Source: Candidatus Nitrosocosmicus oleophilus (lineage in GTDB: Archaea; Thermoproteota; Nitrososphaeria; Nitrososphaerales; Nitrososphaeraceae). Taken from it: a stretch of 64,000 nucleotides of DNA. The position numbers and the translations under genes were made by a program. The stretch lies in the NCBI RefSeq assembly GCF_000802205.1, contig NZ_CP012850.1, forward strand, positions 744,001 to 808,000, given 5' to 3'. Each line of letters opens with the position of its first letter. Position 1 is the stretch's first letter. Below are positions 25,919 to 43,623 of the stretch, one piece after another. Below the pieces are notes generated by a model. That model worked only from the letters and a program-made list of their open reading frames with translations. It had not been told where the DNA came from and ran no database searches.

Positions 25919-26128
25919 ATGCCTTGTAAAGGTAAATGTGCAAATGAAAAACCTATAAAAGGATCTCATAAAGATAATACCGCTAATTCCAAATGTTCCA
26001 TGTGTGGGATCAGATATTATTCTGATGCCCGTAGATGTTATTGTTGTAATTCATTATTAAGGAAGAGAAAATCCAGACATCATTCTTTAAGACTTAAGGA
26101 AGAGGCAAATATGATTACGCGTTATTGA
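25919..26128 (+). CDS. Small zinc-ribbon protein
   Basis: A 69-residue protein with three cysteine pairs: CKGKC at the N-terminus, CSMC in the middle, and CYCC, followed by a very basic tail (LLRKRKSRHHSLRLK). The layout fits one zinc ribbon plus nucleic-acid-binding basic residues. Family not identified. An AT-rich stretch precedes the ATG. Confidence 0.6.
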   Translation: MPCKGKCANEKPIKGSHKDNTANSKCSMCGIRYYSDARRCYCCNSLLRKRKSRHHSLRLKEEANMITRY

Positions 26129-26397: not shown

Positions 26398-27117
26398 TTG
26401 ATTGTGGTGCAAGTAATTGGAAATAATAATCCTAACAATATTAAGAACGACGAATCGGGAGTTCTTATTGTAGTTGAAGGAATTGACGGGTCAGGCAAAT
26501 CTACGCAAATTCACTTGGTAGATAGATGGTTAAACTCTAAAGGATACGATGTTTTTTTTACAGAATGGAATTCTTCGGAAACCGTGAGAGAAATTACCTC
26601 CAAAGGGAAAAAAAAAGCAAGATTGACGCCCATGACTTTTTCACTTTTACATTCAACCGATTTTGCTGATCGATACGAAAAGAATATTTATCCATTATTG
26701 CGAGCTGGATATATCGTTCTTGCAGATAGGTATATCTACACTGCTTTAGCTAGAGACACAGTGAGAGGGTGTGACAAATCTTGGGTGAGGAATATGTACA
26801 GTTATGCTCGAAAACCTGATCTAACTTTCTATTTCAGGGTACCAATAGAAACTGCAGTAAATAGAATCATTTCTGGTAGACCAAAGTTGAAACATTATGA
26901 AGCTGGAATGGATCTTGGATTGAGTAAAGATGAATATGAAAGCTATAGGATCTTTCAGGGAAGAATTGTTGATGAATATGAATCGATGGTTGATGACGAA
27001 AATTTTATAGTAATTGATGGTACACTTGAAATAGAAAAACAACAAAATATTGTAAGAAGACACGTATTGAGGACATTAAAATTGAAAAATCCGATTCAAG
27101 GACATATACTTGAATAA
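26398..27117 (+). CDS. Thymidylate-kinase-like P-loop kinase (intact Walker A)
   Basis: A 239-residue dTMP-kinase-superfamily protein. Walker A is GIDGSGKST at residues 28-36, and the DRY motif is present (LADRYIYTALARD, about 114-126). The segment MTFSLLHSTDFADRYEKNI matches the base-binding helix. A second paralogue follows after 29 nt on the same strand, so they are probably co-transcribed. True thymidylate kinase is one possibility. A role outside dTTP synthesis is another, because the pair lies between two CHAD proteins. Confidence 0.75.
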   Translation: MIVVQVIGNNNPNNIKNDESGVLIVVEGIDGSGKSTQIHLVDRWLNSKGYDVFFTEWNSSETVREITSKGKKKARLTPMTFSLLHSTDFADRYEKNIYPLLRAGYIVLADRYIYTALARDTVRGCDKSWVRNMYSYARKPDLTFYFRVPIETAVNRIISGRPKLKHYEAGMDLGLSKDEYESYRIFQGRIVDEYESMVDDENFIVIDGTLEIEKQQNIVRRHVLRTLKLKNPIQGHILE

Positions 27118-27146: not shown

Positions 27147-27914
27147 GTGGTCTCAACATTAACAAAGAAAAAATATTCGGCTGATGATAGCAAAGGCAGT
27201 AATAAAATTAAATTTATTAACCATTCGGGAATAAAATATCTTAAAGACATTGAAATACATGGATCGTTCATAGTAGTTGAAGGACCAGATGCTTCGGGAA
27301 GAAGTACCCAAATTCAAAAAATAACTGAGAAATTGGAGGCTGATGGACATGCAGTAGTTAATGCCGGATTAAAAAGATCTGATCTCATATCAAAAGGAAT
27401 AATTGAAGCAAAACGAAACTATCAGGTTGGGAGAAGAACGATGGCACTTTATTATGCAGCAGATTTTGCAGATCAATTGGAAAATAAAATAATCCCTGCA
27501 CTTAAAGCTGGTTTTGTAGTAATTTCTGATAGATATATCTACACACTTATTGCGAGAAGCTCTGTAAGAGGGATAAATAAAAATTGGTTACATCAATTAC
27601 ATAGTTTTGCGATCAAACCAGATCTTATTTTCTATCTGAATGTGGATCCATATAATCTGATACATAGAGTATTTAAAAAGAATAAATCTCTTGATTATTA
27701 TGAATCAGGAGCGGATCTAGGCATATCTGCAGATATTTTTGATTCCTTTATTAAATATCAATATTTGTTGAAGAAAGAGTTTGCTATTATGCAAAAAAAA
27801 TATGGACTTATTGATATAGATGGTGATAAGCACATTGAAGATATTTATGATCAAATTCAATCGAGAATTAGTGAATTTCTTAATCTAAATAAACATAATG
27901 GGACCCGAGTTTAG
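27147..27914 (+). CDS. Thymidylate-kinase-like paralogue with Arg in Walker A
   Basis: A 255-residue paralogue of the preceding gene, started at GTG 27147. It keeps the fold blocks (MALYYAADFADQLENKIIPALKAGFVVISDRYIYTLIARSSVRG) and the DRY motif. Its Walker A reads GPDASGRST, so the invariant phosphate-binding lysine is Arg52. The codon is AGA and the neighbouring glycines are intact. An N-terminal extension of about 38 residues is unlike the partner. It may be a weakly active or regulatory subunit; heterodimer formation with the upstream protein is inference. Confidence 0.7.
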   Translation: MVSTLTKKKYSADDSKGSNKIKFINHSGIKYLKDIEIHGSFIVVEGPDASGRSTQIQKITEKLEADGHAVVNAGLKRSDLISKGIIEAKRNYQVGRRTMALYYAADFADQLENKIIPALKAGFVVISDRYIYTLIARSSVRGINKNWLHQLHSFAIKPDLIFYLNVDPYNLIHRVFKKNKSLDYYESGADLGISADIFDSFIKYQYLLKKEFAIMQKKYGLIDIDGDKHIEDIYDQIQSRISEFLNLNKHNGTRV

Positions 27915-28336
27915 TTGTAGAATTAAAAACATTTTGAGTAGCTATTCTTTGTAGTGGAAATGATTGTAACAATCAATTAATCTAAAGACTTATTTATTTA
28001 CTACTACTCCTTTATTATGAATTTGTACCATTCAACGAATCAACGAAATCAATCATAATCTTTGAAATTTTAGGATGGATATAGATCATCTATTTTCTCT
28101 TTATGGCGATAAAATTTTTTGTAATGTTTTTCTCATATCAAATCCACTTTATTCTTTAATTTACAACTAAGATCTTGATGCCTAGTTTGTTACAATATTT
28201 GTTGCATACCCAGTTGAAAGTATACCTCTATAGAGTACATAGTAACTATTAGGACAATTGTTAAATCCTTTATCGAGATAGTTTATTCAAGGTGAGTAAG
28301 AACACAAATTTATATCCGGAGGAAGGAAAATTATGC
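27915..28336. other. Spacer, nothing clear
   Basis: No coding frame longer than about 30 codons is supported, and no repeat or RNA gene is recognised. Confidence 0.5.
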
Positions 28337-28450
28337 ATGGGTTGTTTTCATCAAAGATTTAATCATCGATATAACATGGGAGAGCAAAATAATTGCCTTT
28401 TATGTGATCACCCGAAATGCGATTGTATCCAGTTTATCGAATGGATTTGA
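28337..28450 (+). CDS. 37-residue Cys/His microprotein (CFH...CLLC...CDC)
   Basis: ATG 28337 opens a 37-codon frame: MGCFHQRFNHRYNMGEQ, then NNCLLCDHPKCDCIQFIEW. The pattern C-F-H-x4-H-x-Y-x4-Q-x-N-N...C...C-x-C-x-Q is shared with the proteins at 40966-41142 and 42393-42548. It is probably a zinc-binding microprotein. Confidence 0.6.
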   Translation: MGCFHQRFNHRYNMGEQNNCLLCDHPKCDCIQFIEWI

Positions 28451-28834
28451 TCTGCCTTAATCATGGTTTTTGATAGTACCTAATAATCGGTATACGAAGA
28501 TATATTTGTATGATATTATTTATTTCCCAAAAATAAAACAAGATAATATAAAATCTGCCTTATTCCTACAGATCGATCCAAATGTTAATAATTTCGATAG
28601 AATATTTTGATATATTATATGGCGAAAGACAAGTGACTCCTTTGTAAAGGATCATGTTTGATTCTTGTCGATTATGTCTTCTCCAATATGACACCACCCA
28701 CACTTGAGTTTAAATTAATTATAGACAAATGTCATGAGCGTTTTACATAATAACATAGGAAGGGTAAAGTATTCATTTCCTCCCACTTCTTCTTACTAGG
28801 TTCATGTTGTTGCTAATTATTTTATGTTAGACTA
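28451..28834. other. Spacer with one strong hairpin
   Basis: At about 28630-28671 an outer stem GACAAG/CTTGTC encloses TCCTTT/AAAGGA. No gene is supported. The hairpin lies downstream of the CHAD gene, which is on the other strand, and could be a terminator or a small structured RNA. Confidence 0.35.
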
Positions 28835-29734
28835 TTATAAGCCACCATTCACAACTAAAGTTCTAGTAGATTTACCATAATTAACGAAGTCATCAAATTT
28901 TGCCTTTCGTACTTTGATGATATTTGTTATTGTACTTGTAATTAGTGGATTGTTAGATGCTTTATGTTGCCTCAAATAATTCAAGGCAATATCATAGTCG
29001 TGGATATCGCCAAGCATTCCTTGAATTTTTTCAAGATGTTCGAGGATCTTTTGATAATTATTGTCAATTAATACATCCATGTCATCGTTTATATTCCTTT
29101 TGCTGGTATCATTCTCCTCTTTATTTATTACAAGTTCGATTAAATAGCGCAATTTCTTTGAATCTTTTCTTAGTTCGTGTAACTCCGTGATTTTACTATC
29201 ATCGCCAATTACGATTGGGATCCTCGTTTCTATTTTATTCTTTAATTTTCTGGAGATTTTTGCTAACCTTTTCATTGAATTTCCTTCAAAATTCTTATCA
29301 GTCTTATTTTTGTCGTACAAACTGGGGACAACTATTCTTCTTAAATCTAAAGCAATTGTTCTAGCTTCTTCAAGTTGATTTTCTTTTTCTTGGACTAGAG
29401 GGTTCTCATAATGCTCTAATTGTTGTTCATGCATCTTACCTTCCCTAGTCAACTTTTCAAGAATTATGTCAATATCTCGTATATTACTATTAATTCTGAA
29501 AAGTCTTTTACCTACACTAGCAAACTCTTTGAATTTCTTTTTTTTCCGGATTTGTTTAGGACTTGACTGGTAGGTTGCTTCGAGTCTTCGAAGTGATGTT
29601 CGCATATGGTGAATGTTATCTTCCGTTGGATTTTCCAAATACTTTTCCAATTTTGTATAAACTCTTTTAATGTTTTGAGTACAGTTATCAATATATGTAT
29701 TGACATCAAAATGGATATAGTAATATTCCAACAT
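28835..29734 (-). CDS. CHAD-domain protein (polyphosphate-binding family)
   Basis: A 299-residue helical protein with a recognisable CHAD domain: IHHMRTSLRRLEA (His42, Arg45, Arg49, Arg50), ELHELRKDSKKLRYLIEL (about 195-212) and LEKIQGMLGDIHDYDIALNYLRQ (about 235-257). These basic and histidine residues line a polyphosphate-binding cavity in characterised CHAD proteins. It is on the strand opposite the kinase pair and near a SixA-type phosphatase, a combination seen in phosphate-storage neighbourhoods. Function here is inferred from the family. Confidence 0.85.
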   Translation of the reverse strand: MLEYYYIHFDVNTYIDNCTQNIKRVYTKLEKYLENPTEDNIHHMRTSLRRLEATYQSSPKQIRKKKKFKEFASVGKRLFRINSNIRDIDIILEKLTREGKMHEQQLEHYENPLVQEKENQLEEARTIALDLRRIVVPSLYDKNKTDKNFEGNSMKRLAKISRKLKNKIETRIPIVIGDDSKITELHELRKDSKKLRYLIELVINKEENDTSKRNINDDMDVLIDNNYQKILEHLEKIQGMLGDIHDYDIALNYLRQHKASNNPLITSTITNIIKVRKAKFDDFVNYGKSTRTLVVNGGL

Positions 29735-29976
29735 ACAATACTACGCTACTATTATACTAATTTAAGTATTATATACATAACTAAGAGACTTGAATCTCCT
29801 TTGAAAGTTGATGGGTAGACTACAGTAAATATGCTAATTATCAATAGGATGGGATGAATGAAGTAATCATCATCCATTTACTCTCAAAAGCGATCTATAA
29901 ACGAGACTAAATATTTACATAATTTCTATATTTTGTTTTCCATTTCGGCTTGGAAAGAATCTTATATCCTAAATCA

Positions 29977-30501
29977 TTATTCAATTTTTTTTGGTCTCCA
30001 AATATCTACAAGTTCAGATCTAAAATTACAATGCAGATCGATAGATCTCCAATTTTCAATACTTAATTTTAGTTGAACGATAGTGCAGGTTGGTATCCTT
30101 ATTTTTCTGTTGATCAGAATACTTGCTAATTCTTCTAAATCGGGATTGTGTCCAATGATCAGTAATTTTTGTTTGTCATTTGATACAGTATCTAGTGCAT
30201 TTATGTAAGCTTCAACACCACCTCGGTGCAATGAAAAGTTGACTTCAACGAGATTATTATACCCAGAATATCTACACAGGTATTTGGTAGTTTCAATGGC
30301 TCTAAGCGCTGAAGAGGTTATGATGGTATCCGGTAATATGTTCATTTTTTTTAGGTGCTCTCCCATTTTGATTGCCTCTCTTCTGCCTCTCTTGTTAAGT
30401 GGCCTGTCGTGATCATCCACCTTTTTATCCTTCCAACTGGATTTTGCATGTCTGAGTATTAATAAGACTTTGTGAATATTCTCAGCCCCATTGACACGCA
30501 T
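29977..30501 (-). CDS. SixA-type histidine phosphatase
   Basis: A 174-residue histidine-phosphatase-superfamily protein. The RHG motif appears as LILRHAKSSWKDKKVDDHDRPLNKRG, with the catalytic His near residue 17. Other active-site residues are in TIITSSALRAIETTKYL and LIIGHNPDLEELA. SixA removes phosphate from phosphohistidine in phosphorelay proteins; archaeal targets are unknown. It precedes the CHAD gene on the same strand. Confidence 0.88.
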   Translation of the reverse strand: MRVNGAENIHKVLLILRHAKSSWKDKKVDDHDRPLNKRGRREAIKMGEHLKKMNILPDTIITSSALRAIETTKYLCRYSGYNNLVEVNFSLHRGGVEAYINALDTVSNDKQKLLIIGHNPDLEELASILINRKIRIPTCTIVQLKLSIENWRSIDLHCNFRSELVDIWRPKKIE

Positions 30502-31461
30502 GAAAGCATTATCGATAACATACTAAAAAAGTATCCTGATTAATTATAGAAACGCTATTTACAACAAGAGATTTCATTAAAATAGGAATTAGTATGTAGT
30601 AGAATTGCGATAATCAAAAAATATTTCAAGAAAAAGTATTCACATTAAATTACCCATACCACGATTCTAAATTACATGACACAACCACCGACACCAAGTT
30701 TTGAATATTTGTAAATTGCAGGACCAAAATAAACCAGTTATTTCTATCAAAGATAAAGGCATCAATTAGAAGCCCACTTGGTGCAACTTTCTCATGCTTT
30801 TGTGTATCATAATGTCGTAAACCGTCGTCAAGGTTATCGGAACGTTGGTATTAACATCCCACATTACTATTACACTTATGACGTGAATGTAGTCTTTACT
30901 TTTCATGCGAAATCAAGTATTCTTGTGTGTATAATCATGTCCAATTCAAATATAAGGTAGTTGTATATTTTGACAGTAGATCACATATCTCAAACTTTTA
31001 GAATAGATGAATTTTCCTTATACATACTCTTGTACAACTACATGGAGTCTTTGTACCTGGAAACGCATGATTTGCGCAAAGGATTTCGCGATGAAGATCA
31101 TGTTATGTTACTGTGAAGGAATCATAATGAACTGATTATTTATGAGAGTGTATGTTAACTGTTATACTGTAAAAAGATCGAAATTTCAAAAGAAGTGACT
31201 ACATTACATAATAATTTATAATGCATTTTAATATTATTTAAAAATTCAATAAAAATTATGGCCAATTAATAATTTTCATCGATAGTGATAAATAATGATT
31301 ATTATTTGTCTATAGATGATAATAAAATTGAAAATAATCTCCCTATGTTGTGTTATATCGTCATCCAAAAATGTCCGTCGGTCATTTTCTTTTATAGTTA
31401 TCCTTAGATTATTGACTTACGCATTAGACCGCCAAACAATAAGGAGGATGGGAGTGGCTTT
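30502..31461. other. Long spacer before the cNMP-binding/oxidoreductase gene
   Basis: No gene is well supported. A 60-codon frame at 30778-30960 has no recognisable features. Around 31062-31108 two imperfect inverted repeats occur (ATGAT...ATCAT with GCGC/GCG). AAGGAGG at 31441-31447 is a strong ribosome-binding site for the ATG at 31462. Confidence 0.5.
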
Positions 31462-33132
31462 ATGAGTAATAATCCAAGAGGTCTTCCGTTAACTAGAGCT
31501 CATATAGAGCGAATATTTCCTAAATTGACCGATGAACAGCTTAGTAGAATGCAAGAGCGAGGTCACTTACGTTCAGTAAAACTCGAAGTCTTAGTTGAGC
31601 AGGGGGATAGTAACGTTCCTTTCTTTGTAGTGGTATCAGGCGAAATTGAGATTCTTCGTCCTTCCGGTGACATTGAGACCCTTATTACCGTACATGGCCC
31701 AGGTCAGTTTACAGGAGAGATCAACATGCTTTCTGGACGTCGGGCTCTCTTTCGTGCACGTGCAACAAAACCAGGTAACGTAATTGAAATGGATCGTCAA
31801 AATATGATGGCTTTGCTTCAAAGCGACGCTGAGATAGGTGATATCCTGATGCGGGCTTTCATTCTGCGTCGTGTGGAATTAGTGGCAGCTGGAGTCGGAG
31901 ACGTTGTGCTCATTGGTTCATCCAATTCGGCCCGCACGTTTCAGATCAAAGAGTTTCTCATGCGCAACGGACACCCCTACAACTACATAGACCTTGAAAA
32001 CGATTCAGAAGTACAACATCTATTGGATAATTTCCATATTTTAGCCAACGACATACCTGTTCTGATATGTCAAGGTAAATTTGTGCTACGAAATCCCAAT
32101 AACCAACAAATCGCTAATTGCTTGGGCTTTAATGAATTAATTAACCAAACCGCACTGAGAGATCTAGTTATTATCGGTGCCGGTCCCTCTGGGTTAGCTG
32201 CGGCAGTATACGGGGCTTCTGAAGGACTCGATGTCTTAGTGATGGAAACTAGCTCGCCGGGTGGACAAGCAGGTTCAAGTTCAAGAATCGAAAATTACTT
32301 GGGATTTCCAACTGGTATATCGGGCCAGGATCTTGCGAGTAGAGCCTACACTCAAGCGCAAAAGTTTGGTGCAGAGATCCTTATCACCAAAGGGTTACGA
32401 CTCTCCTGTGGCGGCAAACCCTACATAGTTGAAAATGAGGATGGATCTAAAATACCTACACGTACAGTCATAATTGCAACGGGGGCTGAGTATAGGAGGC
32501 TGAGATTAAAAAATCTGCAACGTTTTGAAGGTATGGGCGTTTACTACGGAGCAACGTTTTTGGAATCACAGTTATGTAAAGGGGATGAAGTAATTGTTGT
32601 TGGAGGAGGAAACTCGGCTGGTCAGGCAGCTGTCTTCTTGGCAGAGTCGGCAAAGTGTGTACACATGCTCATTAGATCTGCCGGCTTGGCAGAAAGCATG
32701 TCACGCTATCTTATCCGCCGGATCGAAGATACTCCCAAGATTATACTACATACGCACACGGAGATCATAACACTCGAAGGAGACATTCACCTCGAATCTG
32801 TACAGTGGCAAAACAGTATAACTAAGGAGATAGAGGAGCATAAAATTAGTAATGTGTTTGTCATGGCAGGCGCTGCTCCAAACACCTCATGGCTTGATGG
32901 CTGTATCGCTCTTGACTCTAAAGGCTTTATCAAAACTGGTGCTGATCTGTCACCAGAATATCTGAGTAATATAGGTTGGCCAGTTGCACGTCAACCATAC
33001 TCATTTGAAACCAGTTTGCCTGGAATTTTTGCTGTGGGTGACGTGCGTGCTGGCAGTATCAAGCGAGTTGCATCCGCTGTGGGAGAAGGATCAGTTGCGA
33101 TCTCATTTATTCATAAAGTACTTCAGGAATGA
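31462..33132 (+). CDS. cNMP-binding / thioredoxin-fold / FAD-NAD(P) oxidoreductase fusion
   Basis: A 556-residue three-part protein. Residues about 15-145 are a cyclic-nucleotide-binding domain (GPGQFTGEINMLSGR). About 150-225 is a glutaredoxin-like fold (VVLIGSSNSARTFQIKEFL) with Ser/Asn in place of CxxC. The rest is a thioredoxin-reductase-like flavoprotein: GAGPSGLAAAVYGASEG for FAD, VVGGGNSAGQAA for NAD(P), and a GDVRAGS end. The redox CxxC of thioredoxin reductase is absent. Base composition is visibly richer in G+C than its neighbours, and AAGGAGG precedes the ATG by 14 nt, unlike most genes here. Acquisition from bacteria is likely. Confidence 0.85.
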   Translation: MSNNPRGLPLTRAHIERIFPKLTDEQLSRMQERGHLRSVKLEVLVEQGDSNVPFFVVVSGEIEILRPSGDIETLITVHGPGQFTGEINMLSGRRALFRARATKPGNVIEMDRQNMMALLQSDAEIGDILMRAFILRRVELVAAGVGDVVLIGSSNSARTFQIKEFLMRNGHPYNYIDLENDSEVQHLLDNFHILANDIPVLICQGKFVLRNPNNQQIANCLGFNELINQTALRDLVIIGAGPSGLAAAVYGASEGLDVLVMETSSPGGQAGSSSRIENYLGFPTGISGQDLASRAYTQAQKFGAEILITKGLRLSCGGKPYIVENEDGSKIPTRTVIIATGAEYRRLRLKNLQRFEGMGVYYGATFLESQLCKGDEVIVVGGGNSAGQAAVFLAESAKCVHMLIRSAGLAESMSRYLIRRIEDTPKIILHTHTEIITLEGDIHLESVQWQNSITKEIEEHKISNVFVMAGAAPNTSWLDGCIALDSKGFIKTGADLSPEYLSNIGWPVARQPYSFETSLPGIFAVGDVRAGSIKRVASAVGEGSVAISFIHKVLQE

Positions 33133-33456
33133 ATATGAAAATAGGTTAATTAAGGCACCATGATGGAGAATTATTTTATTATTCCTAAATATGCAACATT
33201 TCACAAAAATTAGGTCGAATATCATATCATTATGTTTATCGGATTTGGTTGAAAAACAACCTACTTTTGAAACATTACCAATAAGAAGATGCTATCAGGT
33301 ATCTGATCTTCAAGTCTGTTGCTAAGATAATTTGGAAATATTTTGCATGGATTAAATAAGCATAAATCATTTCAAAAATACAGTACCAAATTAGACATTA
33401 GGTAAAAAGATTATTAATTCTGATTTTATCTAGGATAGCTGATATTTATACTATAA
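33133..33456. other. Spacer, nothing clear
   Basis: No coding frame, repeat or RNA gene is recognised. It should contain the promoter of the glyoxalase-type gene at 33457; TATA-like ATATTTATACTATAAT lies at about 33443-33458. Confidence 0.4.
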
Positions 33457-34563
33457 TTGGAAAATACTATCATGACAAGGGATAGTCATCAAGGTATTCT
33501 TGGAATACACCATATCACAGCTATAGCCGGTAACCCCCAAAAAAATATTGACTTTTACACTGGTTTTTTAGGATTACGACTAGTCAAATTAACCGTTAAC
33601 TTTGATGATCCACAAACATATCATTTCTATTATGGAGATGATATTGGGAGACCAGGTACAATACTGACATTTTTCCCTTGGCAGAACATGCCAAAAGGTT
33701 TTAGAGGAACAGGCCAAGTAATTACCACAGCCTTTTTGATACCCGAAAGTTCAATAGAATATTGGATTAACAGACTAAAAAGTCAAGGAGTAAGTTATAC
33801 TGGTCCGACCAAGAGGTTCGATGATGTTGATGAACAAGTTATTACGTTTTATGATCCAGATGGTATGGAAATAGAACTAGTTGCACATAAGGACGCTGAG
33901 ACAAAAAAAGATCATGTTTGGAGAAAAGGCCCTATTCCCGAGGAATATGCTACTAGAGGATTTTATTCAGCAACCCTTTCCTTGGAAGGATATGAACGAA
34001 CAGCGGATCTCTTAATTGAAAACATGGGTTTCTCAAAAACTAAGAGTGAAGGAAATAGATTCCGATTTGAAATTAAAGATAAAGAAAAAATAATAGATGG
34101 TTTCTACAGTAACAAACAAAAAAGAGAACTCGATCTTTTGAATTCTCCATCTACTGTGGATCTTGTATGTCTGCCATATACTCAACGAGGTTCTATGGGA
34201 GTGGGTACTGTCCATCACATTGCATGGCGAACTCCAACTGATGAAAGCCAGTTGGATATGCGAAAAATAATAATTAATACGGGTTTGGATGCTACCCCTG
34301 TAATTGATAGAACATATTTTCATTCACTATATTTCAGAGAACCTGGCGGTATTCTATTTGAAATAGCAACTGATCCACCTGGATTTATGATAGACCAAAA
34401 AGAGGAGGAGCTGGGACAAAAGCTCTTACTACCTGAATGGTTAGAACCCGACCGCAAATATCTTGAGAAAGTGCTTCCCAAAATTAGTACACCATCGCTT
34501 GATAAATTTTCTTCTCCTTCTCCTTCTCCTTCTGATCAAACTAGTAAACTAAGTGAAAGATAA
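33457..34563 (+). CDS. MhqO-like VOC ring-cleaving dioxygenase/glyoxalase
   Basis: A 368-residue vicinal-oxygen-chelate protein with two VOC modules. The first begins GIHHITAIAGNPQKNIDFYTGFLGLRLVK, and the second holds VHHIAWRTPTDE and FREPGGILFEIATDPPGF. Metal ligands are His in each HHI block and Glu in the FEIA block. Bacterial MhqO/MhqE cleave or detoxify hydroquinones; the archaeal substrate is unknown. The likely start is TTG 33457 or ATG 33472. The C-terminus adds a Pro/Ser repeat tail. It overlaps the hydrolase gene by one base. Confidence 0.8.
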   Translation: MENTIMTRDSHQGILGIHHITAIAGNPQKNIDFYTGFLGLRLVKLTVNFDDPQTYHFYYGDDIGRPGTILTFFPWQNMPKGFRGTGQVITTAFLIPESSIEYWINRLKSQGVSYTGPTKRFDDVDEQVITFYDPDGMEIELVAHKDAETKKDHVWRKGPIPEEYATRGFYSATLSLEGYERTADLLIENMGFSKTKSEGNRFRFEIKDKEKIIDGFYSNKQKRELDLLNSPSTVDLVCLPYTQRGSMGVGTVHHIAWRTPTDESQLDMRKIIINTGLDATPVIDRTYFHSLYFREPGGILFEIATDPPGFMIDQKEEELGQKLLLPEWLEPDRKYLEKVLPKISTPSLDKFSSPSPSPSDQTSKLSER

Positions 34564-35240
34564 TGAAGCAACCTGATTTTAAATACCGTTTTATTCCTTC
34601 CCAGTCACAACAACAAGTAGCAGACAATTCTGATCAAGCATATAGGCCCAAAGACAATAAATCAAAAACATTGACTTTATTACTGCTTCATGGCACAGGT
34701 GGAAATGAGGATGATTTGATACAAGTTGGTCAAATGATATCGCCTTCTGCATCATTATTAAGTCCTCGGGGAAAGGTGTTGGAAAATGGAATGCCTCGAT
34801 TTTTTAAGCGACTCGCCGAAGGTGTATTTGATTTGGAGGACTTGAAGTTTAGGACCCACGAATTGGCTGATTTTGTTAAGGATACATCAAGCATTTACGG
34901 TTTTGATCTAAACAAGACAATTGCAGTAGGATTTTCTAATGGTGCAAATATAGCAGCAAGTCTTCTTCTTTCATATCCGGGAACCCTAATGGGTGCGATC
35001 CTATTTAGGGCAATGGTCCCATTCATACCAAATTCTCCACTCGATCTATCTGATAAAAAGGTGCTATTATCTGCAGGAGTGTATGATCCAATAGTATCAG
35101 AAAGTCAAACACAAAGTCTCTATAATATTCTAAAAAAAAGTAGAACAAATGTGACTTTGAAATGGCAGCAATCGGGACATAATCTTACAGAGTCAGACAT
35201 ATTAGACGCAAAAGAATGGTTGTCTGAAAGCATTCGTTAG
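34563..35240 (+). CDS. MhqD-like carboxylesterase (alpha/beta hydrolase)
   Basis: A 225-residue alpha/beta hydrolase. LLLLHGTGGNEDDL forms the oxyanion region and GFSNGANIA carries the nucleophile Ser. Asp (GVYDPIV) and His (SGHNL) complete the triad. The ATG overlaps the stop of the dioxygenase-like gene, as in bacterial mhq pairs. Together they probably detoxify quinones or related aromatics (inference). Confidence 0.8.
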   Translation: MKQPDFKYRFIPSQSQQQVADNSDQAYRPKDNKSKTLTLLLLHGTGGNEDDLIQVGQMISPSASLLSPRGKVLENGMPRFFKRLAEGVFDLEDLKFRTHELADFVKDTSSIYGFDLNKTIAVGFSNGANIAASLLLSYPGTLMGAILFRAMVPFIPNSPLDLSDKKVLLSAGVYDPIVSESQTQSLYNILKKSRTNVTLKWQQSGHNLTESDILDAKEWLSESIR

Positions 35241-35829
35241 ATGTGATGGGCCTTTATCCTGTTTCTACTCAATTTCGGTAGTCATCATAGATTTGGATTC
35301 AATAAATCTATTACTAAACCCACCCACCTGACCCATTGCAATATACTGCTTTTTAGTATTAAACAGGTTAAGAAAATAATATTTTGAAATAAAATTAGAA
35401 AAAAATCTATTATTTATCCCATTTCCTTTTTTGACTTCACATGATTATTACAATCATCAATATGTCAAAAATACAAATATTAGCTAAGATAGATGCATTC
35501 TGCGTGCGTTTTATTTCTGGTAATCAATAATAATTATCTTGTGAAATGAGCAAACTATTTTGATATCTAGATACTTATTAAATTGAATGTTGAACCCATT
35601 TCTCATAGACATAGATTCGAGTCCCATCTCTGGCACTAATAACGACCAATTATACTATGTTTTGATATAATTTTACTGTTTCAGATGTTTAAATTTCAAA
35701 AGAAAGATATATTCAACCATGATGTAACCTTGGTTCACAACTATCTAAACTCCACAAAATAATACAATTGGTATCCATTTGTTACATGTCAATTGAATAT
35801 TTATAACAACGTACCTTGTTATCAATGGT
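35241..35829. other. Spacer with a copy of a dispersed 19-bp repeat
   Basis: Contains ATCTATTACTAAACCCACC at 35306-35324, related to copies at 37226 and 51865. Near 35618-35650 the sequence resembles a tRNA 3' end (ATTCGAGTCCCATCTCTGGCA), but no tRNA body is present. No gene is supported. Confidence 0.5.
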
Positions 35830-36186
35830 ATGGGGTTCGGAAAATACGGAAATATGGGAAGAAGTATCTTGGACCGAGATTCATCGATACGATTTGTAAC
35901 GATATTTGATACTCGTACTGAAAGTATAGTGTTTTCAGAACATCAACCCGGAGCTACCAATTTGTTATCAAGGGAAGAAAGTCAGGAGTCTCTTCAGTTG
36001 GCGATTAACGCATGGAAGACTAGAAGTAAATTGGCACCAAAAATAGGTAATGGAAAGTACGTATTGGCCGAATACGAGAAGATAAAAAGAATTACAATGC
36101 CGTTGGACAACGATCATTTGTTATATATAACAACAGAAGTTGAATGCGATGCACTTGATTTGATTGATAAAATTAGGAAAATGTAA
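35830..36186 (+). CDS. DUF6659-like protein
   Basis: A 118-residue protein with the block order I associate with this archaeal family: SSIRFVTIFDTRTESIVFSEH, LAINAWKTRSKLAPKIGNGKYVLAEYEKIKRITMPL and HLLYITTEVECDALDLIDKI. The fold is profilin/roadblock-like by pattern. A related protein is encoded at 44848-45273. Role unknown, possibly in signalling. The ATG at 35830 is chosen because the frame upstream lacks another start. Confidence 0.6.
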   Translation: MGFGKYGNMGRSILDRDSSIRFVTIFDTRTESIVFSEHQPGATNLLSREESQESLQLAINAWKTRSKLAPKIGNGKYVLAEYEKIKRITMPLDNDHLLYITTEVECDALDLIDKIRKM

Positions 36187-36214
36187 ACATCATAAATGAA
36201 AAATACCAGCCTGT

Positions 36215-36424
36215 ATGCATAGTGAAGAGAATGAATACTTAATTAATGAAGATCCAAAAAGAGGAGTCATTTTTGTCACTCTAAACACCACATGGAGCGA
36301 AATTGTATTCTATCATGAATCATATTCAAGGAAGTTAACAACTAGTAGTAGAGTACCTATGAATCCTTCTGAAAGAAATGCTACATCAGAGTTACCATAT
36401 ATGATGAAAATACATCAGAATTGA
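36215..36424 (+). CDS. Small protein overlapping endonuclease V gene
   Basis: A 69-codon frame (MHSEENEYLINEDPKRGVIFV...). Its TGA stop overlaps the TTG start of the endonuclease V gene (TTGA, 36421-36424). The four-base overlap suggests translational coupling, which is the main support for its being real. No family recognised. Confidence 0.5.
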   Translation: MHSEENEYLINEDPKRGVIFVTLNTTWSEIVFYHESYSRKLTTSSRVPMNPSERNATSELPYMMKIHQN

Positions 36425-37062
36425 ACAACAATAACAGAACTCCCTACGCGAAGGTAATAAAATTACAAAAGGAATTGGCAAAAAAAGTCATAACAAGAGA
36501 CGATTTTGATAGTAACGTTGAATTTATTTGTGGAGTGGATGTATCCTATAGAAAAAAAATTGCATACTGTTCAGCAGTAATAATCAATAAAGAAAATTTT
36601 GATATAATAGAGACAGTCAGCAGCAAAACTGGGATAAAAAATCCATATATTCCAGGTTTATTTATTCTAAGGGAATCTGCTCCTATTCTTCAAACATTGA
36701 GATTGATCACAAGACCATTTCAACTTTTGCTAGTGGATGGTCATGGGGTCCTTCATCCTAGAAGATGTGGATTAGCATGTTATGTTGGCATAGATACAAA
36801 CATACCTACCATTGGTGTAGCAAAAAGTTTGTTATGCGGTGGTGTTCAATCAGATAACTTTGTAACTCACAAGGGTGAAATTCTTGGATATGCATTAAAG
36901 TCCAATGAAAACTCAAAAAAAGTGGCATATGTCAGTGTCGGACATAAGATCGGTCTACTGACATCGATAGAACTAGTTAAATCAATAACAAAAATAAATC
37001 AATATATTCCCGAACCTCTTAGAGTTGCTGACAAACTATCAAAAGAACTAGATGACAAATAA
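36421..37062 (+). CDS. nfi: Endonuclease V
   Basis: Endonuclease V cleaves the second phosphodiester 3' to deoxyinosine in DNA repair. The 213-residue protein shows FICGVDVSYRKK (first Asp), LLLVDGHGVLHPRRCGLACYVG (Asp and the HPRRxG loop), and GVAKSLLCG and GYALKSNENSKKVAYVSVGH. These match the catalytic blocks in order. The start is TTG at 36421, overlapping the previous stop. Confidence 0.92.
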   Translation: MNNNNRTPYAKVIKLQKELAKKVITRDDFDSNVEFICGVDVSYRKKIAYCSAVIINKENFDIIETVSSKTGIKNPYIPGLFILRESAPILQTLRLITRPFQLLLVDGHGVLHPRRCGLACYVGIDTNIPTIGVAKSLLCGGVQSDNFVTHKGEILGYALKSNENSKKVAYVSVGHKIGLLTSIELVKSITKINQYIPEPLRVADKLSKELDDK

Positions 37063-37624
37063 TCCTTACTCTTCCAATTAAATTAGGTAAATCTATTAAA
37101 ACGTTATCTAATTATTAAATAGCAAATTTTTTCAAAGATCGATTTTACCTATCCCATAATAATGAACAATGAAATTATAAAAAAATTAATTTAACAACTT
37201 TTGGAAAGTATCAGACTCGTAAGAAATCTATTACTAAATCCACTGTATCCGATCCGTTGATCGTCTTTTAATTAATCTTGTTAAGAATCAATGTTTTAAA
37301 TGTTATACCAAAGTCAATGTCAAAAGAATTATCGGAACATATTCTTCATATATTACTTAGTCAATTACCCTACCTTAATTTTTTACCGTTAATAATATGA
37401 ACTCGACCTAGGCTTTTGAACTTTCCAGGATGAACCTTGCTAACTAACGGATCTGGATGGATGCAATTGGGGTTGTCCTAGAAATGTTTTCCACTAATTA
37501 TAATCAACTTAAATTCACTTTAAAATCAAAAAGCAAAGAAACAGTTTTGATCGATAAATAAATCACTTCTGTTCTACACGTTTTTAAATAACTTTGGGAT
37601 TCTAAATACGGGGAAGATTTAACG
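37063..37624. other. Spacer with a dispersed-repeat copy
   Basis: ATCTATTACTAAATCCACT at 37226-37244 is a diverged copy of the repeat at 35306 and 51865. No gene is supported. Confidence 0.5.
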
Positions 37625-38065
37625 ATGAGCATAACCGGTATACAGGAATTTGATTTTCTGATAAATATCGGCTTGTCACTACTTGCAGGTGTATTAATCG
37701 GTGCCGACAGAGAATTGAAGGGGAAACCCTCTGGAATTGGAACACATTGTTTCGTTATTGGTGGTTCAATGATATTTACTTATCTTTCTGCGATCGTTGA
37801 TCCGAATTCTACATCAAGGATCGCTGCCCAAATCGTAACCGGAATTGGATTTCTTGGAGCAGGGATAATACTAAAAGATGAAATTTTTGATAAAAAGGAT
37901 ACAGCTGATTCTAAACATACTAAAGTATTAAACTTGACTACTGCAGCAAGCATATGGTTTTCTGGTGCAATCGGAATGGCAATAGGATTTAACTTTTACT
38001 TTGTAGCGATAGTTTCAATAGCTTTTGCCGTAGGCGTTCCTCATATTCCTAAAATTAGAAATTAA
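37625..38065 (+). CDS. MgtC/SapB-family membrane protein
   Basis: A 146-residue multi-pass protein. LLAGVLIGADRELKGKPSGIGTHCFVIGGSMIFT and SRIAAQIVTGIGFLGAGIIL are the conserved MgtC membrane segments. It lacks the cytoplasmic C-terminal domain of Salmonella MgtC, as many homologues do. The family affects survival at low Mg2+ and, in some bacteria, phosphate homeostasis. A GACAGG hairpin follows the stop at about 38071-38107. Confidence 0.85.
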   Translation: MSITGIQEFDFLINIGLSLLAGVLIGADRELKGKPSGIGTHCFVIGGSMIFTYLSAIVDPNSTSRIAAQIVTGIGFLGAGIILKDEIFDKKDTADSKHTKVLNLTTAASIWFSGAIGMAIGFNFYFVAIVSIAFAVGVPHIPKIRN

Positions 38066-38211
38066 ACTTAACCTGTCTAAATAGAGGTACGCATATAATG
38101 TTGACAGGATACCAATGATCATGACTGATACTATGTTATTATGAATCTAATCATTTGGAATCATCTTTTCCGGAAATAGATTGATTTATCTTAAACATTC
38201 AAATAAATTAA

Positions 38212-38817
38212 ATGTTAAAGTCCGCAGAAATTCGGTGGTTTTTTGAAGGTAGGATACCTATTCACATACCTGAAATTTTGGAAGAGGCAAGATTGGATAT
38301 TTCTGAAAACAGAACTGACCACTATTTATTAGTGCTAGGTTGTGACAATATTGGCATTAAAATAAGAAACTCTAGGTTGGAAATCAAACGTCGTCGTGAT
38401 GTACAACCTTATTGCATATCTAAACTGAATATTAGTGGCAATATTGAATGGTGGGAAAGATGGGAGTGGAATGATAAGACAACGTGTAACGACATTGAAC
38501 AATTGGTTTTTAAGGATGATAAAAATCCCTGGATACGGGTAGACAAGAAACGATGGCAAAAGAAATTTAATATTCGTGATAATGACTTGATCCCAATTCC
38601 TTCTCGAGTGTTGTACTCTGATCTTGCTATGGAAATTACCGAATTGAAAGTAAATAGAAAATTATGGTGGACAATTGGCTTTGACTCATTTACAGACCAG
38701 AATCATTCCTTTTTTGATAAACTTATTGAAACCTGTCTTGCACCACACATTGAAGTAGATTTGAAAAAAGAGTGGTCCTTTGGGTATCCTCGTTGGCTAT
38801 CTCGGGTCATTATTTAG
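38212..38817 (+). CDS. CYTH-like protein
   Basis: A 201-residue protein opening with KSAEIRWFFEGRIP, then RTDHYLLV, GIKIRNSRLEIKRRRDVQ, WERWEWN and WIRVDKKRWQKKF. The alternating charged strands and the order E-I-R, D-x-Y-L, K-I-R-x2-R-L-E-I-K-x-R fit a CYTH/triphosphate-tunnel-like barrel, although the canonical ExExK start is not intact. CYTH proteins bind or hydrolyse triphosphates. The assignment is by motif order only. Confidence 0.5.
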   Translation: MLKSAEIRWFFEGRIPIHIPEILEEARLDISENRTDHYLLVLGCDNIGIKIRNSRLEIKRRRDVQPYCISKLNISGNIEWWERWEWNDKTTCNDIEQLVFKDDKNPWIRVDKKRWQKKFNIRDNDLIPIPSRVLYSDLAMEITELKVNRKLWWTIGFDSFTDQNHSFFDKLIETCLAPHIEVDLKKEWSFGYPRWLSRVII

Positions 38818-39761
38818 GTTAAATTATGTACCTTTAGTAGTATCTTGAAAAGTATCAATAAGGTAAATTCTACTACTGTCAATGTTATTCACAGTTTATG
38901 GGATTGTTATTCCTTTCTTACTTCGCGATGAATACTGCTTGAAAACTATTCATATTAATACTAATTGATAGAAGTTTATTGCATTGTCTTGATTATTTAT
39001 GTAATGTTCTAATCTTGAATTTTCTAACGAGGGGTTGAGGGATGTATGTACAACCTCCCGGTTGGCATAGTGAAGTCTAAGTCAAAAACCTAGACAAATA
39101 TTGTCGGGATATCAACTTATTATTCCTATTCTAAATTATCTATAAAAGACCTGTTTCTGGATTTTATATGTCGGATCAAAGACTCGATCTCTATTCTTGG
39201 GTATCTCTTACGGATTTGAAGGTAATTGAATTTCATAGATGTAATGATGAATAGGATAAGAGAAGTCTAAGAGAAGTTACACACGAGTTCTTTCCTATCC
39301 TATTCTTAGCTAGCATGTTTTGTGGCTGAAAAGTCCTGTGTAATCTGATTAATGTATTCTCAAATAGATAAGCCTAATCTATAGGATCTAATTAATTCGC
39401 ATATGCCATAGTGATTATTTACTTGTCCTTACACTACTTATCTGAATTCTCCGCTTCAAAGTTCAATACCAATTAGATAACGCTAAGAAAGCTTACAACA
39501 TTCAATATTTGAAATTATATTATTATCCAACAATGCCATATCGCTGGTAATAGATAAATAACCCGCCTAGTCAACATTGGAATAGAAATATGAAACTTGG
39601 TGGTATTATTTCATGCGACTAACCATTGTTTCCTTTTTCCTTAAATAATGTGAAATGAACAGTTTCTCTTTCGCTATCACGATCTATTTTGTTATTTTTT
39701 TACCACTGCCTCATTCATTAATTTGTATCAATTTTTATGTGCGAGATCACTTTTTGTCTAT
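38818..39761. other. Long spacer with two hairpins
   Basis: GGTTG/CAACC forms a hairpin at about 39034-39057. GAATAGGATA (39249-39258) pairs with TATCCTATTC (39295-39304) across about 36 nt. No gene is supported. The second resembles the GGATAG/CTATCC stems of the intergenic elements at 41.3-44.4 kb. Confidence 0.4.
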
Positions 39762-40595
39762 ATGACTTCAAATCAAAAGGTGGCTGTAGTTACTGGAAGC
39801 TCAAGTGGAATAGGCCATGAAATAGCACTAATACTTGCAAGGAATGGATTTCTTACATATGCTACCATGCGAGATTTGCAAAAAAATTCCAAGCTAAAGT
39901 CTATTAAAGATGAAGAAAACTTGCCATTAGAGTTTATCCAACTGGATGTTACCGACGAGAATTCAGTAAAAACTGCAGTTCAAAAAATTTATGATGATGT
40001 AGGTAGAATTGACATGTTGATAAATAATGCGGGTTATGGACTAACAGGAGCATTCGAGGATCTTTCAATTGATGAAATAAAAACACAATTTGAAACAAAT
40101 TTTTATGGATTAATAAGAACAACTCAAGCTATTCTTCCTATCATGCGTAAACAAAAATCAGGTACTATTGTCAATATGAGCTCTGGTGCCGGCAGATTTG
40201 GTTTTCCCATGGGTTCTGCCTATGTTAGTACTAAATTTGCAGTAGAAGGTTTGAGCGAATCGTTGTCATATGAAGTGGAACCATTTGGCATTCGAGTCAT
40301 TTTAATCGAACCCGGTATGATAAAGACAAACTTTTCTAATGCTTCCATCATGGCAAAGAAATCTATTGATCCCAATTCGTCTTACGCTCCTCTAATGAAA
40401 AACATGCAAACAGGATTTAACAAATTACTAGAAAATGCATCTTCACCACAATTAGTAGCACAAATAACACTGGACGCAATGACATCTGATAAACCAAATC
40501 TGAGATATTTAGCCGGTAAGGATGTCGAACAATGGGTAGAAGCTAAGAAGAAAATGTCAGACGAAGAGTTTCATGATATGATAAAACAGATTTAG
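39762..40595 (+). CDS. Short-chain dehydrogenase/reductase
   Basis: A classical SDR: VAVVTGSSSGIGHEIA (NAD(P)-binding TGxxxGIG), LINNAGYGLTG, and the catalytic Ser plus SAYVSTKFAVEGLSESL (Tyr-x3-Lys). I choose ATG 39762 (MTSNQKVAVV) over an upstream in-frame TTG at 39723, because the glycine-rich motif normally sits within the first 20 residues. About 277 residues. Substrate unknown. Confidence 0.85.
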   Translation: MTSNQKVAVVTGSSSGIGHEIALILARNGFLTYATMRDLQKNSKLKSIKDEENLPLEFIQLDVTDENSVKTAVQKIYDDVGRIDMLINNAGYGLTGAFEDLSIDEIKTQFETNFYGLIRTTQAILPIMRKQKSGTIVNMSSGAGRFGFPMGSAYVSTKFAVEGLSESLSYEVEPFGIRVILIEPGMIKTNFSNASIMAKKSIDPNSSYAPLMKNMQTGFNKLLENASSPQLVAQITLDAMTSDKPNLRYLAGKDVEQWVEAKKKMSDEEFHDMIKQI

Positions 40596-40965
40596 ACCAT
40601 CTCTATCTTTTTTATGTACATTGATTCTTGATCACCATGTTTTATCTGATCGAAAGATCTATACCTGTTATAGTCACATAATCAGTTAGAATCTCTTTTA
40701 TAATACCAATATCAACTTGATCTCCACGACTGATAACTGTTACTATTTGATAATTCATTTTCATGCGCAAAACCAATGACACTACTTCAAGTCAATATTA
40801 AATTGAATGTATGAATCTGCCTTAATTTTTTTTGACCGAATATCGATTACTTAACCTTTGGTGATTTGAACATCATCATCTACATCTTGGGATTGGATTG
40901 ACTATAATGCGGTGAGCACAGCATAACCTTATCCAAAGATAAATAAACATAATCATTAAATGTAA

Positions 40966-41142
40966 TGGCTCTCTATTGGCAATTCAGTAATTGACCATGA
41001 TGAAACGATAGATTTTTACCTATTCAAACCATGTATAAATTGCTACCATGTAAAGAAAGATCATTTGTATTATCAAAAACAAGATAATAATACACATCCT
41101 TGTCTCAAATTTGGATGCGTTTGTAATCAGTATACAGAATAG
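40966..41142 (+). pseudogene. Cys/His microprotein remnant without a start codon
   Basis: A frame after the TAA at 40963 encodes FKPCINCYHVKKDHLYYQKQDNN and then PCLKFGCVCNQY, closely matching the microprotein at 42393-42548. No ATG, GTG or TTG lies in frame before the first cysteine, so it is either a pseudogene or uses a rare start. Confidence 0.5.
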
Positions 41143-41477
41143 ATTTTATTTTTTATATAAAACTATTAATTTGAAAATCCACTCAAATTATTGTAGATAT
41201 AGTTTCGATATTAGCAAATAACATGATTCGCTGGGTTTAATGAATATAAACAAGGGGAAGCTAGTTTGTGTAACTTTTTCTTGATTTATGAATAATTGTC
41301 TATGTTTCATCTAGATTATATAGGATAAGGCTAAATCATATTGATACATTATCTCTTATACTCTACGAGACATGCTTCATAGAATTAGGATCGGGTCATG
41401 TGGCACACTGTTGCTTTCTAGTAACCCTATCCTTTTTCATCATTTAGTGATGTAGACTTTCAAAGATCCGAATTCAA
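41143..41477. other. Spacer with intergenic element copy 1
   Basis: No gene is supported. The spacer carries the first copy of the three-copy element described at 41305-41440. Confidence 0.5.
41305..41440 (+). repeat. Three-copy intergenic element, copy 1
   Basis: A TTTCATCTAGATTATATAGG box is followed after about 82 nt by an AGGATCGGG...CCCTATCCT hairpin. The copies at 41786 and 44302 share this layout. A structured RNA or small non-coding mobile element is possible. Confidence 0.5.
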
Positions 41478-41717
41478 TTATTGATTCTTATTGCGTGTTT
41501 GACTACATCCACATATTTTCAGTCTCTGTTCTAACATCGATACATCAGCAAACCTAGTTTCACTGTTACTAAATTCATATATTCCTACAATGTGTGTATG
41601 ACATGTTGGGCAATATTGATAGTATAACTTGTGCCATAATCGTGTATTAACATTGTAAGTTGGTTCGCAACTTAAAAATTGAGGAACAAACTCTACTTCA
41701 CAATTAAAACAACGCAC
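41478..41717 (-). CDS. Small zinc-binding protein
   Basis: A 79-residue protein with CFNC at the N-terminus, CPTCH in the middle and CGC near the C-terminus, arranged as a zinc ribbon (MRCFNCEVEF...YYQYCPTCHTHIVG). It lies between copies of the intergenic element. Family not identified. Confidence 0.65.
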   Translation of the reverse strand: MRCFNCEVEFVPQFLSCEPTYNVNTRLWHKLYYQYCPTCHTHIVGIYEFSNSETRFADVSMLEQRLKICGCSQTRNKNQ

Positions 41718-42392
41718 AAAGATAACAATTACCTTAGGGTTTAATAAACTGTATTATGGTATTGGTAAACTCTGAAGATCTTATATTTCATTTAGATTAT
41801 TTAGTATAATGAAAATAGTCTGTATGCATTTACCTACATAGATAGTTTTCTCTACCTCAACAGCATTATTACACTTTGGATAGGAGGTTGGTACTGGAAG
41901 ACCCTTGATCTAACCCTGGGCTGTCCAAAGTATCTATTATGTTTTGATCTGAACTCAAAATGAGTTTTAATCAAATCCATTATACATTTCCAATTTCCTA
42001 TCTTGTGTTACAATTATGAGAAAAAGGAGAACAAACCAATAATATAACTTATCAAAAATATTCATATCTATTGCTTGTAAGTATATTCGCCTCTAATTGT
42101 CATTGTTTATTCAAATAACATACATTTCATAAACCTCTGACCCGACCTATTGATAATACTGTTACTTAGAAAAATTTTGGTCATAATAAGATAATAAATA
42201 AAATCAATTTTAACTATTACGTATGTGACTATGAACCGTATATAAAATCCTCAACCGATCCGAACCTCGAATCTTGAAAATCTCCTAGTCGATTAGTCGA
42301 ATTGTTAAGAAGAACTTTCCATTGAAATCGTCATAACTATTATATTAGATTGATATCTATCGACATTCTGGTTATCTATATTGATAAAGACC
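41718..42392. other. Spacer with intergenic element copy 2
   Basis: Carries element copy 2 (41786-41935) and no supported gene. The rest is AT-rich with no recognised signal until the microprotein at 42393. Confidence 0.5.
41786..41935 (+). repeat. Three-copy intergenic element, copy 2
   Basis: TTTCATTTAGATTATTTAG starts at 41786. An 11-bp stem, ACTTTGGATAG (41873-41883) with CTGTCCAAAGT (41921-41931), follows; it is complete if one G-T pair is allowed. An inner AGGTT/AACC pairing extends it. This is the strongest hairpin of the three copies. Confidence 0.55.
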
Positions 42393-42548
42393 ATGGCCAG
42401 TAGAAGCGGCACAGAACTATATAAACCATGTATGAATTGTTTTCATACAAAAGAATATCATCTATATTATGAAAGCCAGGATAACAATAAACGCCCATGC
42501 ATGAAACTTGGATGTAATTGTAGTCAGTACAATCATGACCTTAAATAA
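42393..42548 (+). CDS. 51-residue Cys/His microprotein
   Basis: ATG 42393 encodes MASRSGTELYKPCMNCFH, then TKEYHLYYESQDNN and PCMKLGCNCSQYNHDLK. The C-x2-C-x2-H...H-L-Y-Y-x3-Q-D-N-N...P-C-x-K-x-G-C-x-C pattern is shared with 40966-41142 and, in shorter form, with 28337-28450. It is probably zinc-binding; family unknown. Confidence 0.65.
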   Translation: MASRSGTELYKPCMNCFHTKEYHLYYESQDNNKRPCMKLGCNCSQYNHDLK

Positions 42549-42804: not shown

Positions 42805-43623
42805 ATGACGGTGGATATCGTTCAATCTTTAATTTTGGGAATCGTGCAAGGAATAACGGAGTGGTTGCCAATATCTAGCTCAGGACATCTAGCACTAACC
42901 CAATTATTACTTAATATTCATGTACCTATTTTCTTTGATTTGATTCTTCATATAGGAACTCTAGCAGGCCTCATGGGGTTTTATCGAACTGATTTGCTAA
43001 TGATTTTCAGGTCTGTTTTCTATTCTCGTTCCATGTCATTGCAAGCTGTCAAAGAATATAGAAAACTATTAATGCTTATCATAATTGGAACAATCCCGAC
43101 TGCAATTATCGCATTTGCATTAAAGTCCTTCTTCGAATTTTCATTTTATGATTTCTTCCTGTTGTCTCTAGGATTTCTGATAAGCGGTATATTCATTTAT
43201 ATCACCAAATATTTCAAGAAAGGTTCTAGAGATATCAATAATATTGATGCTATATTAATTGGAATAGCCCAGGGATTCTCTGTATTCTCAAGCATTTCTA
43301 GAAGCGGGATTACAATTTCTTTAGGAATGATAAGACAAATTGATCACACTCAATTGGTCAGGTTCTCATTCCTGTTATCCATCCCGGCCATTCTAGGTGG
43401 CTCTGTATTTGATTTTGTTCTGATGGATTCTACACAGCTATCTGCGATAGGGGAAATCCCTTTTTCTTCTTATATAGTTGGATTTTTATCATCCGCAATA
43501 GTTGGGTATTTAACAATCAAACTGTTAATAAATATTATAAACAGAGGAAAACTTTACTATTTCGCATATTATTGTTTAGGACTAGCAGCAATATTACTAA
43601 TATATTCATTCATCATGGTTTGA
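42805..43623 (+). CDS. uppP: Undecaprenyl-diphosphatase-type membrane phosphatase
   Basis: A 272-residue multi-pass protein of the BacA/UppP family. The active-site blocks are ILGIVQGITEWLPISSSGHLAL at the N-terminus and SSISRSGITISLG near residue 165. In bacteria the enzyme recycles the undecaprenyl carrier. In archaea the likely substrate is a dolichyl- or related polyprenyl diphosphate (inference). Confidence 0.9.
   Translation: MTVDIVQSLILGIVQGITEWLPISSSGHLALTQLLLNIHVPIFFDLILHIGTLAGLMGFYRTDLLMIFRSVFYSRSMSLQAVKEYRKLLMLIIIGTIPTAIIAFALKSFFEFSFYDFFLLSLGFLISGIFIYITKYFKKGSRDINNIDAILIGIAQGFSVFSSISRSGITISLGMIRQIDHTQLVRFSFLLSIPAILGGSVFDFVLMDSTQLSAIGEIPFSSYIVGFLSSAIVGYLTIKLLINIINRGKLYYFAYYCLGLAAILLIYSFIMV

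Follow-up and report, generated by a model that had tools for sequence, protein, structure and literature searches.

Two intact genes and one decaying copy of a short, probably zinc-binding Cys/His protein family in Candidatus Nitrosocosmicus oleophilus

The stretch of DNA considered here, called the window throughout, covers 64,000 nucleotides of the archaeon Candidatus Nitrosocosmicus oleophilus (contig NZ_CP012850.1, positions 744,001 to 808,000) and carries on its plus strand three very short frames, designated P1, P2 and P3, which have the signature C-x2-C-x-H-x4-H-x12-C-x4-C-x-C in common. The spacing of all seven Cys and His residues is identical in the three frames, as had been claimed in an earlier note on this DNA; no other frame of the window fits the motif, even when the least strict of three patterns is applied, and a second-order Markov model yielded no match at all in 200 simulated sequences of equal length. 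The motif as worded earlier was right in its Cys/His spacing and left out the first Cys, while the Q-x-N-N element ascribed to all copies occurs in the second and third and reads E-Q-N-N in the first. P1 (28292..28450, plus strand) encodes 52 amino acids from a GTG start, MSKNTNLYPEEGKLCMGCFHQRFNHRYNMGEQNNCLLCDHPKCDCIQFIEWI, with the putative ligands C15, C18, H20, H25, C38, C43 and C45. P3 (42393..42548, plus strand) encodes 51 amino acids from an ATG start, MASRSGTELYKPCMNCFHTKEYHLYYESQDNNKRPCMKLGCNCSQYNHDLK, and equally has seven ligands. P2 (40966..41142, plus strand) is an open frame whose P3-like part starts near 41020.

The extent of P1 had to be revised. A gene of 37 amino acids at 28337-28450 had been proposed; comparison with relatives moves the start to GTG 28292, where the orthologues of genomes G012 and G010 carry ATG-GTG. 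The ATG at 28337 is the Met of L-C-M-G-C and lies inside the first CxxC, so that a start at this position would remove the first Cys; relatives without this Met still keep the preceding Cys. The coordinates and the length of P3 had been given correctly, and to say that proteins of 51-52 amino acids fall below the length handled by standard gene callers is an overstatement. Immediately 5' of P1, the stretch 28230..28291 (plus strand, about -62 to -1) is conserved in an alignment with G012, G010 and G013, with similarity to G010 and to a decayed copy in G007 starting at about -62, and is probably the promoter and start region of P1. Equally, the stretch 42317..42392 (plus strand, about -76 to -1), aligned with G012, G013 and G010, is probably the promoter of P3.

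Both intact frames can be followed at marked sites in related genomes. P1 lies 3' of two tandem thymidylate kinase-like genes (26398-27117 and 27147-27914, plus strand; PF02223, expectation values (E) of 3.9e-25 and 1.5e-23) and is convergent with a CHAD-domain gene; the kinase-like pair is diverged and retains its order in relatives, with no functional link to P1 shown. P3 lies 5' of a uppP/BacA-like gene (42805..43623, plus strand; PF02673, E 7.4e-64). Fifteen genomes of the genus were searched, 12 of which have the second kinase gene, and P1 is intact in three of these (G000, to which the window belongs, G010 and G012). In G013 all ligands are kept and the tail is altered after the last Cys; since several of the relatives are metagenome assemblies, single-base lesions such as this one may be assembly errors. 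P3 adjoins uppP in four of the eight genus genomes that have uppP, namely its own genome, G012, G013 and G010, in the last with a TTG start.

Few changes are available per pair for tests of selection. The pooled ratio of non-synonymous to synonymous change (pN/pS) is 0.21 for P1, 0.22 for P3 and 0.29 for a related group of proteins with the motif FVEWI. Between G000 and G010, 11 of 25 changes in P1 (p 1.4e-3) and 12 of 24 in P3 (p 1.9e-4) are synonymous, with approximately 17% expected; when transitions are weighted fourfold, the p values become 0.04 and 0.008, respectively. Conservation and purifying selection in related strains, on which the earlier note had made its proposal depend, are thus both found for P1 and P3, which, as judged from these sequence comparisons, are real and conserved genes.

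P2 presents a different picture. No ATG, GTG or TTG precedes its motif, which agrees with its original description as startless, and its DNA is 73% identical to that of P3 over 113 nucleotides. Its lesions vary by genome: the start is missing in G000, one ligand Cys is replaced by Ser in G012, and frameshifts run through the motif in G013. Over 40 codons, G000 and G012 differ by six synonymous and four non-synonymous changes (pN/pS 0.14, p 2.6e-3), and this synonymous excess suggests that P2 was probably under selection until recently. With the start lost and other lesions in two relatives, the suggestion that the middle frame is a working member of the family did not hold; P2 seems not to be a functional gene in its own genome and is better described as a decaying duplicate related to P3.

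The idea of a microprotein family proved sound for P1 and P3, and the family is far larger than the three genes originally proposed. A profile built from the three window frames alone finds matches in 22 of 41 genomes, its own included, at E up to 0.1. In the loci already fetched by similarity, the same profile gives 37 unique matches at E up to 0.001, the three of the window included, and 31 of these have all seven ligands; the remaining six are two counterparts of P2, two decayed P1-like copies, one match truncated where the fetched DNA ends and a single weak fragment. This count is fairer than the 'invariant' ligands of a wider profile of 22 rows, where the invariance is partly built in because the rows were extracted with a pattern that requires most of the ligands. 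An aromatic residue stands two residues after C-x-C in all 22 rows. At E up to 0.001 the 22-row profile matches seven places in the own genome, P2 included, and all 15 genus genomes, with one to 11 places in each when decayed copies are counted; it matches 56 of 70 genomes of the family to which Nitrosocosmicus belongs. We conclude that these are probably zinc-binding proteins of approximately 45-55 residues, kept in several copies by soil ammonia-oxidising archaea.

Beyond this family, 27 of 250 genomes of the phylum are matched, the own genome included: two of the genus, 22 of the order-mate family f9, which we take to be Nitrosopumilaceae, and three others, as counted with a profile that draws on few groups and could overlook distant members. 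The usual form in f9 has approximately 50 amino acids with an acidic tail (MNCKRCHHTxEIH...IDEDLL) and the same seven ligands, and occurs also in two genomes of the Nitrosocosmicus family. It differs from P1 and P3 in this acidic C-terminal tail and in its gene neighbours. Profile-profile comparison of the short f9 form gave 95.3% with the three window frames and 96.0% with the P1 group, where 60 ligand-preserving shuffles of the latter comparison reached a maximum of 85.3%. Some of the f9 matches sit within open frames of approximately 190-212 amino acids; in the two of these that were read, the motif begins with C-x-C, not C-x2-C. A protein of 192 amino acids at L130:5044-5619, which has a counterpart of 212 amino acids in L129, contains such an internal related Cys/His module with C-x-C at its start. 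The Cys/His stretch of FAM221 (PF14753) aligns with this 192-residue protein at E 0.0081 and 16.3 bits, under the cut-off of 25 bits; a relationship is not claimed, and FAM221 has no match in the own genome.

Comparison with named families leaves P1 and P3 without a model, as neither has a Pfam-A or NCBIfam match at E up to 1. The RGCVC family (NF038206) aligns weakly and partially with the CxxC-x-H region of two relatives, at best 12.9 bits among the proteins scanned against a cut-off of 35, and does not match P1 or P3. Small CPxCG-related zinc finger proteins are defined in PMC2253796 by paired Cys/His patterns of which at least one is CPxCG-like and by a length under 100 residues. P1 and P3 (52 and 51 amino acids) are within this length; they contain no CPxCG, CxxCG or CPxCx (CMGCF in P1 and CMNCF in P3) and use CCHH plus CCC instead, and since the required CPxCG-like pattern is absent, they are not members of the class as defined there. 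They resemble Brz, HVO_2753 and HVO_0758 in being archaeal and very small and in having a Cys/His metal motif and many copies per genome. Proteins of the CPxCG-related class are often missed in annotation (PMC2253796; PMC11241148), and loss of Brz or HVO_0758 changes transcript levels or behaviour (PMC2253796; PMC10716476). By analogy, the present family might work most like Brz and HVO_0758. A description of the seven-ligand signature was not found in the literature searched, with most subscription journals outside its coverage and the Nitrosocosmicus genome paper (PMC11559005) covered by a search for single terms.

The nearest named family is found among phage proteins of the collection PHROG. 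PHROG 1311, a 51-position profile of function unknown, shares with the archaeal family the ligand order C-x2-C-x-H-x4-H ... C ... C-x-C-x2-[FY] and the length class. One member encoded in the own genome matches it at E 1.4e-4, which is also the best value among the three of 22 profile rows that match at E up to 0.1; P1 and P3 themselves have no match at E up to 1, and the link is supported for the wider superfamily but not for the window genes. PHROG 17060, longer with 83 positions, equally of function unknown and compared by profile match alone, matches six of the 22 rows at E up to 0.1 (best 0.0039, all weak) and P2 at E 0.25, and leaves P1 and P3 unmatched up to E 1. Searches by tblastn with archaeal members, at E 0.07 and above, lead to sequences with this ligand order, namely 47-residue proteins of mycobacteriophages and the terminal domains of proteins from Gordonia phages. 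Five phage sequences were chosen in this way or with a phage sequence so found, and PHROG 1311 recognises four of the five at E up to 0.1. The third-last and second-last Cys are separated by two or three residues in these five sequences, by four in P1 and P3 and by two in some archaeal rows; one phage form begins with C-x-C. Against the profile of these five, the 22-row archaeal profile gives 90.5% (maximum 67.6% in 60 shuffles preserving the ligand columns) and the P1 group 87.1% (shuffle maximum 23.8%), values inflated by the choice of the phage set through similarity; the corresponding figures are 66.6% for the profile of the three window frames by themselves and 69.3% for that of the f9 form. 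A tblastn match in Microbacterium phage Pabst was dropped since the motif is absent from the frame read, and seven phage tblastn matches of one relative were unconvincing. No DNA similarity to the P3 region was found in phages, and plasmid tblastn with one relative gave no match. Among the four mycobacteriophage records read, the 47-residue counterpart is annotated in one (Dante); in SkiPole, RitSun and Juice456 it is unannotated as an open frame at approximately 1501-1644 of L154, L155 and L156, and in RitSun and Juice456 this frame almost exactly fills the gap between annotated genes.

How such proteins might work can be outlined from their ligands. The frames and their spacing, the orthologues, the purifying selection, the spread in several copies and the duplication and decay are established; that P1 and P3 fold around metal and serve as docking adaptors, with P2 as a decaying duplicate, is as a whole given an even chance. 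The seven ligands fall in a span of 31 residues with near-fixed spacing, which argues for a metal-dependent fold; zinc binding is plausible, where we infer the metal, its identity and its number from the sequence. Most likely one or two zinc ions are bound by the seven ligands and provide the fold that a chain of this length cannot form by itself. P1 and P3 would then be small adaptors that attach to a larger protein and regulate or stabilise it; the metal knuckle would be common to all members, and the partner would be picked by the variable ends, FIEWI in P1 and QYNHDLK in P3. The adaptor role and the partner are the most speculative part of this proposal. In its favour, net charge varies while the ligands stay (-1 in P1, +2 in P3, -3 in the f9 form, +8 in one group of the same family and -6 in the phage form, among nine sequences tallied), which is read as pointing to varied partners over one shared nucleic-acid target. 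Furthermore, zinc was bound by nine of 14 haloarchaeal proteins of similar size that had been purified (PMC11241148), and deletion of such haloarchaeal genes alters growth, biofilm or swarming (PMC11241148; PMC10716476).

A number of observations weigh against the adaptor proposal. The remaining five of the 14 haloarchaeal look-alikes were without zinc in the same study (PMC11241148), and the motif is therefore no proof of zinc binding. AlphaFold2 models of P1 (predicted local distance difference test (pLDDT) 71.4, predicted template modelling score (pTM) 0.52) and P3 (pLDDT 64.7, pTM 0.42) are too weak to show the site, and AlphaFold2 cannot judge metal sites of this kind according to PMC11241148. 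Foldseek against the Protein Data Bank gave no significant match (best E 7.7, noise), and none of 10 chains in a second structural look had a Z of 2 or more. A sequence search of the same databank with the 22-row profile returned three RPB12 matches only, over 14-15 residues at E 1.6 or worse, which were rejected. At the P1 site, the copy is decayed in two of the 12 genomes with the second kinase gene (G007 and G003) and nothing was detected in the flanks of six; at uppP, P3 was undetected in four of the eight genomes, where emptiness of a site refers to the flanks retrieved, at most 1.5 kilobases. Missing from many sites, neither gene is indispensable for the genus. Of the P3 pairs, the closer one, G000 and G012, has three synonymous changes of eight (p 0.12), too few to tell, and because the broken P2 still has its low pN/pS, the ratio alone is no proof of present function. 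Finally, the neighbours of FVEWI members are mostly not shared and so indicate no partner.

Other explanations for the same motif have to be set beside docking. The knuckle might bind DNA or RNA and control transcription. A role of this kind has been proposed for the Halobacterium protein Brz; bop mRNA depends on the Cys and His residues of its zinc finger (PMC2253796). Basic members would suit such a role (+3 to +4 in three members of the own genome and the group at +8), and in three genomes one member of the family neighbours a small CPNC...CPRC protein that by eye resembles zf-TFIIB; the negative charges of P1, the f9 form and the phage form, the mostly unshared FVEWI neighbourhoods and the lack of any DNA-binding domain in Pfam scans of the three frames and eight relatives make nucleic-acid binding unlikely, if worth serious attention. 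Buffering or delivery of Zn, Cu or Ni in the manner of metallothioneins has a slim chance: it would account for seven ligands per 31 residues, several copies per genome and frequent duplication and loss, but metallothioneins have a looser Cys-rich pattern, while here the ligand spacing is near-fixed and an aromatic residue follows C-x-C in every one of the 22 rows. Nor do the ten nearby frames scanned, of which at least three have no Pfam match, contain a metal transporter or metalloregulator.

Slimmer still is the chance that these are mobile or phage-derived genes carried as cargo, defence or counter-defence. Patchy presence, decayed copies and the profile similarity to actinophage proteins speak for such an origin, as do, weakly and in a search run without a control, 13 of 50 listed viral Foldseek matches that name phages of Actinobacteria (72 matches in all, every one at E > 0.001). 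However, the P1-group alignment found no relative in the viral contigs searched, P1 and P3 sit within gene order conserved among relatives and not among phage genes, a related form is present in 22 f9 genomes, and the recent duplicate in G007, of approximately 1.4 kilobases, runs into a neighbouring gene and has no clear terminal inverted repeats. That the frames are chance open frames or pieces of larger genes is hardly credible; they are very short and the middle one has no start codon, but against this stand the empty result in 200 simulated windows, selection on the frame, conserved sites and ligands kept across relatives.

Beyond the docking proposal for P1 and P3, a broader relationship can be tentatively suggested, which we would put somewhat short of an even chance: one undescribed metal-knuckle superfamily of approximately 40-50 residues, with the signature C-x2-C-x-H-x4-H-...-C-x2-4-C-x-C-x2-[FY], ancestral to ammonia-oxidising archaea, expanded in soil genera, present within a larger protein in some order-mates and shared with actinophages. 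Convergence on a short metal motif is a possible explanation in place of archaeal-phage kinship. If the broader relationship is true, the superfamily would be a reusable protein-docking module used by cells and phages alike, and the very small size of its carriers would be the reason why it has mostly escaped notice. The signature lets tiny genes such as P1 and P3, which have no Pfam or NCBIfam model, be annotated and tested, and the phage link, if real, would make experiments in tractable actinophages possible.

Close relatives have copies that are intact, newly duplicated or decaying, which makes the family a good case of microprotein gene birth and death. In several diverged FVEWI pairs, DNA similarity is limited to the frame and approximately 25-45 bases upstream, in other pairs it starts inside the frame, and two recent pairs share longer stretches. 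The short shared upstream stretches contain A/T-rich boxes, and leaderless archaeal promoters are a likely explanation for so short an upstream similarity. In G007, two copies share 99.9% identity over 835 bases; the duplication runs past an insertion in one copy into the neighbouring gene and is therefore segmental, and an origin by a mobile element was rejected. The gene reached by this duplication resembles dodecin by eye. Such an event fits the role of duplication as a driver of genome expansion in the Nitrosocosmicus lineage, as reported in PMC7603488.

Further small Cys-rich frames accompany the family. Between P2 and P3, a frame of 79 amino acids with CxxC pairs (41478-41717, minus strand; MRCFNCEVEFVPQFLSCEPTYN...YCPTCHTHIVG) is without a Pfam match up to E 0.01; it is found at five places in the own genome and has matches in six of the 15 genus genomes, and its copy in G009 lies within 2 kilobases of a P1-group member. 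Upstream of the kinase-like pair, a Cys-rich basic frame of 69 amino acids (25919-26128, plus strand; MPCKGKCANEKPIKG...CSMCGIRYYSDARRCYCCNSLL), equally without a Pfam match at this threshold, is likely another small metal-binding protein. The family member with CR[DN]CGHLRISHK... that neighbours the CPNC...CPRC protein is located at L138:4948-5082, L143:4694-4828 and L145:4788-4931, and the two might represent a conserved pair in these three genomes.

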